The notes under the pieces were generated by a model. It was given only the letters and a program-made list of their open reading frames with translations, was not told where the DNA came from and did no database searches. This document shows positions 5,431 to 7,367 of a stretch of DNA of 33,018 nt, piece after piece; the stretch's first letter is position 1; every line of letters begins with the position of its first letter. Made by a program: the position numbers and the translations under genes. Source of the DNA: Methylococcales bacterium (GTDB taxonomy: Bacteria > Pseudomonadota > Gammaproteobacteria > Methylococcales > Methylomonadaceae); assembly GCA_030693155.1 (NCBI GenBank), contig JAUYBJ010000089.1, positions 1 to 33,018 on the forward strand. Reading direction: 5' to 3'.

Positions 5431-5631
5431 TTATCCTTGTGTCAGATGCGCCTGCGCTGCCTCAGCGTCCAGTTTTTTTCTTTTGTCACATTTTTCCACG
5501 CACACACACGCGGCTTTATCCATGCCGCCGCCACAAGAACCTTTAATAGCGCGTCTGCCAAATATAACACCGACAGCCATAATAGCAATCACAACTAACA
5601 TAACCACAAAAGTCACTATAAAATACATCAT
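5431..5631 (-). CDS. nqrM: Na+-translocating NADH:quinone reductase maturation factor NqrM
   Basis: The 66-residue protein has one membrane helix (about residues 4-24), then the signature VGVIFGRRAIKGSCGG and a Cys cluster with Cys33, Cys42, Cys44 and Cys48. This matches the NqrM (DUF539) family, needed to deliver iron to the membrane Fe site of Na+-NQR in the inner membrane. GAGGA precedes the ATG. The nqrABCDEF operon itself is outside the window, but nqrM implies that the cell makes a sodium-pumping NADH dehydrogenase. The C-terminal tail after residue 50 is slightly longer than usual and charged. Confidence 0.85.
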   Translation of the reverse strand: MMYFIVTFVVMLVVIAIMAVGVIFGRRAIKGSCGGGMDKAACVCVEKCDKRKKLDAEAAQAHLTQG

Positions 5632-5855: not shown

Positions 5856-6122
5856 TTATTTTGCAGGGGTTTCGACAGGCTTAGGCTCAACAGCAGGAGC
5901 GGCAACAGGCGCAACAGGAGCGACGACGGGCGCAGCGACAGCAGTGCTGTTCTTTTCCCACTTGCCGCCCGCTTTGAGACACTCTTTTTTGGTCTTCACC
6001 ACAACAGCCTCATTCAGCACACAACTGTGATTTTGTGCGGGCGGTGGAGTGCCTTTTGCCGATTTAGCCAAAGTGGCAGAAGACAATAAGGCAAGAGCGA
6101 CTGCGAAAACTATCTTATACAT
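5856..6122 (-). CDS. Small exported Ala/Pro-rich protein, unknown function
   Basis: Starting at ATG 6122, which has a clear AGGA upstream, the product has 88 residues. Residues 1-19 (MYKIVFAVALALLSSATLA) are a classic Sec signal peptide with an Ala-x-Ala cleavage site. The mature part carries two cysteines (SCVLNEAVVV and KKECLKAGGKWEK) that could form a disulfide in the periplasm. It ends in a low-complexity Ala/Pro/Val/Glu tail. The longer frame up to 6167 adds 15 residues that spoil the signal peptide. A perfect FNR box lies about 194 bases upstream, at the correct distance from a TATATT -10 element on this strand, so oxygen control is likely. Function unknown. Confidence 0.7.
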   Translation of the reverse strand: MYKIVFAVALALLSSATLAKSAKGTPPPAQNHSCVLNEAVVVKTKKECLKAGGKWEKNSTAVAAPVVAPVAPVAAPAVEPKPVETPAK

Positions 6123-6288
6123 GGTTATTTTCCTGTTAGATTTAAGAACAAATGTTTGAAAATTCAAACACGCGGGGCTGAGTTTGACAACCTACCGCTC
6201 TCTTTGTCAAGCCTGTTGTCGGCATTGAACGCATTCTATCGAGAGTCAATCGTCTACCCCGCGCAACCAGCAAACACCGACATTGTTA

Positions 6289-6294
6289 AATATA
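6289..6294 (-). promoter_or_regulatory. Candidate -10 element for the exported protein gene
   Basis: On the minus strand this reads TATATT, five of six bases matching the sigma-70 consensus. It predicts a start near 6282, which puts the FNR box centre (6322.5) at about -40.5, the class II activator position. The untranslated leader would be about 160 bases. Confidence 0.4.
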
Positions 6295-6315
6295 AGCGCA
6301 CTTTTTTGATTGTTT

Positions 6316-6329
6316 TTGATCTATATCAA
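6316..6329. promoter_or_regulatory. FNR/Anr box TTGAT-CTAT-ATCAA
   Basis: This is a perfect match to the FNR consensus TTGAT-N4-ATCAA, between the divergent exported protein gene (minus) and the small lipoprotein gene (plus). The regulator encoded at 6648-7367 keeps the FNR recognition residues Glu199, Ser202 and Arg203, which read TTGAT half sites. Weak -10 elements lie at the class II distance on both sides, so one site could activate both genes when oxygen is low. Confidence 0.85.
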
Positions 6330-6350
6330 AAGCACACATTTTATGTATGC

Positions 6351-6356
6351 CACAAT
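6351..6356 (+). promoter_or_regulatory. Candidate -10 element for the lipoprotein gene
   Basis: CACAAT matches four of six bases of the sigma-70 -10 consensus. A start near 6363 would place the FNR box at about -41, as in activator-dependent promoters. Support comes from spacing more than from sequence. Confidence 0.35.
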
Positions 6357-6450
6357 ATGCCAAGTCAATAAAGACTTAACACCTGCTTCATATTCACAAC
6401 GCCATGTTGTGAGTCAGCGCACACCCAAACTAAAATAACGGGAAAATCCT

Positions 6451-6567
6451 ATGAAAAAAATCAGTTATGTTTTGTTATTACTTGTTGCTGTCACTACGCT
6501 TGCTGCTTGTGGAGAGCAAGGTGTAGGTCCCGCTAAACCAGGCGCGACTCAAGAATCTGCAAAATAA
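6451..6567 (+). CDS. Very small lipoprotein (38 residues)
   Basis: ATG 6451 opens a 38-codon gene whose product starts MKKISYVLLLLVAVTTLAAC. This is a type II signal peptide with lipobox LAAC, so Cys20 would be lipidated. The mature peptide is only 19 residues (CGEQGVGPAKPG, then ATQESAK). The length suits entericidin-like or LptM-like mini-lipoproteins, but the mature sequence matches neither family clearly. It lies downstream of the perfect FNR box and diverges from the exported protein gene. The upstream ACGGGAAAATCCT gives only a weak ribosome site. Function unknown; location should be the inner or outer membrane. Confidence 0.72.
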   Translation: MKKISYVLLLLVAVTTLAACGEQGVGPAKPGATQESAK

Positions 6568-6632: not shown

Positions 6633-6646
6633 CTGATTTATATCAA
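6633..6646. promoter_or_regulatory. FNR-like box (one mismatch) just after fnr
   Basis: CTGAT-TTAT-ATCAA matches the FNR consensus at nine of ten defined positions. It lies one base beyond the fnr stop codon, between convergent genes, where a normal promoter is not expected. It may be chance, or a site for an antisense transcript. Confidence 0.3.
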
Positions 6647-6647
6647 C

Positions 6648-7367
6648 TCAATGCAACGGGCAAGCATTCACTATCGTTTTCAGCAAATCCAGATTATCTA
6701 TTTGAATTCCGCGTTGTTTAACCGTAATAACCCCCTGTTGACTTAAATAAGTCAATTGCCGACTGACGGTTTCAACCGTTAAACCCAAAAAATTGGCAAT
6801 ATCCTGCCGCCCCATAGACAAATTAAATTGCGTACTTGAAAAGCCTAACGCGGTATAACGCAACGACAACATTAATATAAACGTCGCCATTTTTTCCTTT
6901 GCCGAACGGTGTCCAAGCAACACAATTTTATCGTGATCCGATGCAATTTCTTTCCCTAATATCCGCATCAACTGGGTTTGTAAGCGGGGAATGCGCGAGC
7001 ATAACTCATTAAAATGACTTAATGGCAACTCACACACCGATGCCGTTTCTAAAGCGACGGTCGAGCAAGTAAAACGCCCGTGCTGCAATGAATCCAAGCC
7101 CATTAATTCACCTGGCAAATAAAAACCAATAGTCTGCTCATCCCCCGCCAACGTCGTTATAAAACTTCGAAATGAACCCGATTTAATTGCATACAAACTC
7201 TCGCAGGCTTGACCTTGCCCATACAGCAACTCATCCGCTTGCAAAGGGCGTTTATTCTTAACAATATCAACTAATTGAGTGACTTCGTTTTTTTGCAAAC
7301 CGAAGGGCAGACATAATTCAGACAACTTGCAATCAGGGCAAGTTATCGTAGGTTGCGTTAATTTCAA
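6648..7367 (-). CDS. fnr: Fnr/Anr-type oxygen-sensing transcription regulator
   Basis: The 239-residue CRP/FNR-family protein senses oxygen through a [4Fe-4S] cluster. N-terminal Cys10, Cys13 and Cys19 have the C-x2-C-x5-C spacing of E. coli FNR, and Cys112 in ALETASVCELP matches the fourth ligand (Cys122). A cyclic-nucleotide-like domain covers about 25-140, followed by a dimer helix. The helix-turn-helix MGRQDIANFLGLTVETVSRQ has Glu199, Ser202 and Arg203, equal to FNR Glu209, Ser212 and Arg213 that read TTGAT. The start is TTG at 7365-7367, with AGGA nine bases upstream; there is no earlier or nearby ATG. The extra Cys101 is not a known ligand. The perfect FNR box next door is a probable target. 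Confidence 0.93.
   Translation of the reverse strand: MKLTQPTITCPDCKLSELCLPFGLQKNEVTQLVDIVKNKRPLQADELLYGQGQACESLYAIKSGSFRSFITTLAGDEQTIGFYLPGELMGLDSLQHGRFTCSTVALETASVCELPLSHFNELCSRIPRLQTQLMRILGKEIASDHDKIVLLGHRSAKEKMATFILMLSLRYTALGFSSTQFNLSMGRQDIANFLGLTVETVSRQLTYLSQQGVITVKQRGIQIDNLDLLKTIVNACPLH

Follow-up and report, generated by a model that had tools for sequence, protein, structure and literature searches.

The single FNR box between two diverging genes in a 33,018-nt stretch of DNA from a Methylococcales bacterium (contig JAUYBJ010000089.1; this whole stretch is hereafter the window) appears to be the upstream element of a conserved promoter for a 38-aa lipoprotein, and comparison with related genomes makes FNR control of the lipoprotein gene from a class II position a well-supported reading. 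The box probably serves the lipoprotein gene only, and the divergent gene for an exported two-cysteine protein would be transcribed mainly from a proximal promoter of its own.

The box, TTGATCTATATCAA at positions 6316–6329, is a perfect 14-bp dyad centered at 6322.5. On the plus strand the hexamer CACAAT (6351–6356) is immediately preceded by TGC, forming an extended −10 element (TGC-CACAAT, 6348–6356) with a predicted start at 6363, and on the minus strand the hexamer TATATT (6294–6289), which has no TG before it, predicts a start at 6282; the center of the box lies 40.5 bases from each. The lipoprotein gene (6451–6567, plus strand), in whose product LAAC precedes a mature part beginning CGEQGVGPAKP, is convergent with fnr (6648–7367, minus strand, TTG start), and the two-cysteine gene, encoding 88 aa, occupies 5859–6122 on the minus strand with its ATG at 6122. 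The initial annotation had described the box as TTGAT-CTAT-ATCAA at about 40–41 bases from promoters on both strands, between an exported two-cysteine gene and a 38-aa lipoprotein gene close to fnr, and all of these letters, distances, and genes proved correct. Next to the two-cysteine gene, positions 5431–5631 encode an NqrM-like small protein (PF04400, 34.2 bits against a cut-off of 22).

The assembly of the window (G000) contains a second fnr–lipoprotein–two-cysteine block on contig C101 (L053), which is 84.7% identical to the first over 1.7 kb. A paralogous origin of this copy is disfavored by the bin contamination of 5.64%, by the restriction of the identity to 1.7 kb, and by the presence of one copy only in the near-identical genome G048, which matches the window at 98.4% identity over 9.7 kb; C101 is more likely a contig of a sister species in the bin.

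The genome contains 20 perfect FNR boxes and a single match to the reversed pattern, a contrast that is not readable as 20 promoters because the reversed pattern contains TAG and would hence be avoided in coding DNA. When the boxes of the window and of C101 are set aside, 17 of the other 18 fall inside mechanically defined ORFs of at least 80 aa, which led us to reject the 20 boxes as an FNR regulon; the remaining one is intergenic and precedes a 378-aa ORF by 98.5 bases. A perfect box alone is thus weak evidence, and the evidence must therefore come from relatives. As for the hexamers, a five-of-six match to TATAAT within ±1 base of a given place occurs at 3.7% of the intergenic positions of the window and at 2.0% of those in the upstream flanks of the lipoprotein genes (9.5% and 5.8%, respectively, within ±4 bases), and the plus-strand hexamer of the window matches TATAAT at only four of six positions. 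A simple promoter scan listed neither predicted start (6363 or 6282), and the one sigma-70-like site that it returned (6407–6436, plus strand) occurs at the frequency seen in shuffled sequence. Two further candidates were dropped: the near-box CTGATTTATATCAA at 6633–6646 has no equivalent in the corresponding stretches of C101 and of Crenothrix sp. D3 (G022), and the three matches to known RNA families at the site all fell under the gathering score. It is conservation that raises the putative plus-strand half of the arrangement above chance; the minus-strand half shows no clear rise.

Relatives of the lipoprotein were collected by a profile search in 201 genomes sampled from a single Methylococcales family, and 61 of these genomes encode it at an E value of 0.001 or less in a total of 64 copies; weaker matches (71 genomes at E ≤ 0.1) were left out. 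Fifteen aligned sequences share the invariant residues M1, K2, S5, L9, L17, A19, C20, G24, G26, P27, and P30. Among the 39 named loci, 36 are titled as Methylococcales taxa, two as proteobacterium, and one (L081) as Geobacteraceae, the lipoprotein of the last being identical to that of a Methylococcaceae metagenome-assembled genome (L080). Searches of the order and of the class beyond this family gave weak matches only (20.6–29.3 bits), the order search matching 34 genomes, of which one (G258) lies outside the family, and the class search 15, of which 13 do; the best of these matches is in G403 (E value 2.2e-6). The lipoprotein resembles LptM (YifL; PF13627, NF047847) in being short and in having a mature start similar to CG..G....P; however, the match is weak, falling under both cut-offs (11.3 of 27.3 bits in Pfam and 21.6 of 27.7 in NCBIfam), and the same genome has a separate LptM match on contig C30, and we therefore rejected the assignment to LptM. 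A role in the cell envelope during low-oxygen life is probable.

A box with no more than one mismatch is found upstream of the lipoprotein gene in 33 of the 39 named loci. To compare spacing, we considered 53 boxes, that is, the 55 copies with a box minus those of G048, which is the same as the window, and G198, which has a different layout. An extended −10 of the form TGN + NANNNT lies 28.5 or 29.5 bases from the center in 49 of them, corresponding to a box at −40.5 or −41.5, and the other four (G189, G076, G080, and G095) have a five-of-six hexamer at 28.5. At other offsets on the lipoprotein side this pattern occurs in 2% of the boxes or fewer per offset, and at the same two offsets on the mirror side it occurs in none of the 53. 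In E. coli, according to the accessible part of a published survey, 19 of 23 directly activated promoters with a known start have their FNR site at −41.5 ± 4 (PMC3688515); the box of the window lies in this range, at −40.5 as reckoned from the predicted −10, the start itself being predicted. Crenothrix sp. D3 carries a second fnr–lipoprotein pair (L117, G022:C69) with its own perfect box at class II spacing.

The product of fnr matches NF008365 at 241.6 bits (cut-off 228) and aligns with a solved FNR structure at the CxxCx5C motif, the later VCE cysteine, and the ETxSR helix, residues that we take to be functionally important as cluster cysteines and recognition helix; the genome with the box thus also encodes a cognate FNR. 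Across the family, 54 of the 57 lipoprotein copies from FNR-positive genomes have a box with no more than one mismatch in the 260 bases upstream, versus one of the seven from FNR-negative genomes (Fisher p = 7e-6, counted by copies, those of the window, of its near-twin G048, and of C101 entering separately, and uncorrected for relatedness). In the sole FNR-negative genome with a box, G013, the contig breaks off next to the lipoprotein gene, at the place expected of fnr. Among the 57 copies from FNR-positive genomes, fnr is the convergent neighbor of the lipoprotein gene in at least 50, with a gap of 81–333 bases to the profile match, and none of the three FNR-positive copies without a good box (G001 on C60, G009 on C55, and G036, which has two mismatches) adjoins fnr. 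Within genus g1, the lipoprotein is present in three genomes with fnr, and no lipoprotein was found in the five genomes without it (G070, G088, G102, G114, and G123; 74–99% complete).

Five FNR-less genomes of the Methylobacter group (g16; 86–99% complete; loci L029, L030, L035, L043, and L049) have kept the lipoprotein and lost the box, and their lipoprotein genes are preceded by TTGATA at 17 bp from CATACT, which is standard sigma-70 spacing. The alignment suggests that this TTGATA is the old FNR half-site, and the five cases, sharing one common layout, probably reflect a single event. In another FNR-less genome (G175) the box has decayed and reads CTGATTTATTATCAA. Conserved spacing, the co-occurrence of box and fnr, and the TTGATA layout of the FNR-less genomes together lead us to infer a conserved class II FNR promoter. 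The class II spacing towards the lipoprotein that the initial annotation had drawn from the window is therefore borne out, being kept in 49 of 53 relatives, with the box present where fnr is present.

We propose that at low oxygen FNR encoded by the neighboring convergent gene would hold its 4Fe-4S cluster and that its dimer would bind 6316–6329, centered at −40.5, and so stand in for a −35 element. From this position it would recruit sigma-70 RNA polymerase by class II activation to TGC-CACAAT, the extended −10, and the lipoprotein would be made when oxygen is scarce. The two-cysteine gene would be a lineage-specific neighbor driven mainly from a putative proximal promoter at approximately 6210–6181.

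The two-cysteine gene is found in six of the 201 genomes of the family, five of them belonging to genus g1. A TTGACA block lies 59–88 bp from its ATG in all five genus-level layouts (the window, C101, G022, G070, and G088); in the window this proximal element occupies 6181–6210 on the minus strand, with TTGACA at 6210–6205. The TTGACA is followed by TTGTCAAACT (TTGTCACACT in C101, whose proximal TTGACA has one base fewer), giving TCAAAC or CAAACT at 17 or 18 bp as candidate −10 elements, each with three of six matches to TATAAT. In G070 and G088 the gene and its proximal element are kept without box, lipoprotein, or fnr. At 6184–6210 of the window, upstream of the two-cysteine gene, there is a TTGACA-N15-TGTCAA inverted repeat that occurs once in the genome and may combine a promoter with an operator.

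The segment around the minus-strand TATATT is conserved to a lesser degree. Crenothrix sp. D3 has an intergenic stretch that is shorter by 85 bases and, by alignment, lacks this segment, its box lying directly before the proximal block; in C101 the second base of the hexamer is altered, giving TGTATT. Aligned with C101, the window shows 84% identity over the proximal block, 51% over the TATATT segment, 100% over the box, and 79% over the promoter and leader of the lipoprotein gene. The initial annotation had placed one box at about −41 to two divergent promoters and had put both genes under the same dimer. The plus-strand side of this proposal is well supported. Its minus-strand hexamer is near chance level, and control of the two-cysteine gene from −40.5 is not supported, since its proximal TTGACA is kept where box and fnr are missing and the TATATT is absent in D3 and altered in C101. 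The TATATT is most likely a chance hexamer and not a working promoter.

That one FNR dimer at −40.5 nevertheless activates both the 6363 start on the plus strand and the 6282 start on the minus strand, and so co-regulates the two proteins, is in our judgment unlikely. The hexamers are indeed symmetric, and in the immediate surroundings of the minus hexamer (TTGTTAAATA-AAGC) the window and C101 resemble each other. Four of the 53 flanks (8%: the window, G117, G064, and G014) have a five-of-six hexamer at the mirror offset, which exceeds most offsets, although 17.5 reaches 19% and 23.5 reaches 9%. One of the four, Methylomonas methanica R-45363 (L070, G117), has TATATT at exactly the mirror offset together with a divergent 260-aa ORF that is also present in L071. 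However, in the two loci that have AATAAT at the mirror place (L063 and L064, from G064 and G014), the next upstream ORF runs in the other direction, and a survey of ORFs of at least 70 aa at 39 loci found no divergent gene upstream of the box that is common across genera; single clades share one.

Precedents from CRP bear on this model in both directions. Cases in which a single CRP dimer serves both of a pair of divergent promoters are known. The part of one paper available to us, which cites El-Robh and Busby (2002), counts 11 E. coli cases of divergent promoters under one CRP site (PMC3105977), and since such single-site control of divergent genes exists, a two-sided FNR model is possible in kind. 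The arrangement described here resembles these pairs, as far as the same source presents them, in that one dyad lies between a pair of diverging genes, but it differs in having a conserved promoter on one side only, the element of the other gene being approximately 105 bp from the box. Furthermore, at overlapping bidirectional promoters, CRP activating one arm from −40.5 or −60.5 blocked the other arm (PMC12825309, accessible portion), which is suggestive only, as the layout differs.

A composite of these models would hold that one dimer serves both genes by a geometry that has been rebuilt within the genus, the lipoprotein being always class II and the two-cysteine gene being a weak class II target near 6282 in the window species or a class I target at −62.5 in Crenothrix sp. 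D3, and that loss of FNR in the Methylobacter group converted the half-site that survived to a −35 element and made the promoter FNR-independent. Taken as a whole, we consider this composite unlikely.

It is improbable that FNR affects the two-cysteine gene through the proximal promoter, near a class I position in Crenothrix sp. D3 and from approximately −148, with little effect, in the window species. The alignment places the box of D3 at −62.5 or −63.5 as measured from the proximal element, and the E. coli survey, in its accessible part, includes one class I FNR site, at −60.5 (PMC3688515); however, such spacing is found in one species only, and the proximal −10 is poor, with its three matches of six.

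Nitric-oxide sensors of the Dnr/NnrR kind use the same box as FNR, and a regulator of this sort, or another member of the CRP/FNR family, might read the box instead of the neighboring FNR. Weaker paralogs of the family do occur, for example in G000:C264 and G048:C20 (29–30% identical). Such paralogs persist in G137 and G155, however, and therefore the box follows the fnr ortholog and not any family member; with fnr also the convergent neighbor in most copies, we regard a different reader as quite improbable. A chance sequence without function, for which the location of most other perfect boxes within ORFs might speak, is very improbable, as position, spacing, and co-occurrence with fnr are kept over many genera.

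The leader of the lipoprotein mRNA may carry a further feature. In the window a candidate hairpin (AAGTC..GACTT, 6362–6377, plus strand), proposed from folding and shuffling, begins at the predicted +1 or immediately upstream of it. Stems of at least five pairs are found at the start of 35 of 52 leaders, compared with a shuffled mean of 20.9 and a largest value of 34 in 200 shuffles, a count to be read with the caveat that the leaders are related and thus not independent. The stem sequence varies (AAGTC/GACTT, AGCCC/GGGCT, and CCAAGCC/GGCTTGG), and because a MAFFT alignment of the leaders (31 distinct among the 52) leaves the stems out of register, the support comes from shuffling statistics only. 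There is no excess of stems in the next 28 bases (a five-pair stem in 28 of 51, shuffled mean 27.6), which also fold more strongly than shuffles, or in the last 28 bases (20 of 50 vs. 19.4). The hairpin is possibly a 5′ stabilizing stem.

In its mechanism, the proposed lipoprotein promoter is close to the class II FNR promoters of E. coli, where the available text of the survey places the FNR sites of focA-pflB and yfiD at −40.5 and those of narG and dmsA at −41.5 (PMC3688515). As there, one TTGAT-N4-ATCAA at −40.5 or −41.5 would replace the −35 element, with a sigma-70 −10 downstream. It differs from them in having as its target the gene of a small lipoprotein from a single methanotroph family, adjacent to fnr, in that a TGN extended −10 is present in 49 of 53 relatives, and in being known from comparison alone. 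The proposed class II mechanism is ordinary and the target is new; among the matches listed in a literature search that left subscription journals mostly outside its range, no title described FNR targets in Methylococcales.

These results name a conserved, lineage-specific FNR target in methane oxidizers that are called aerobic, members of which have been reported, in the part of the publication accessible to us, to be active in anoxic lake water (PMC11192741). Expression of the lipoprotein could report the oxygen level that methanotroph cells perceive as low. The FNR-less Methylobacter group would represent a natural case in which an activator-dependent promoter has been made activator-independent by a short change of spacing.
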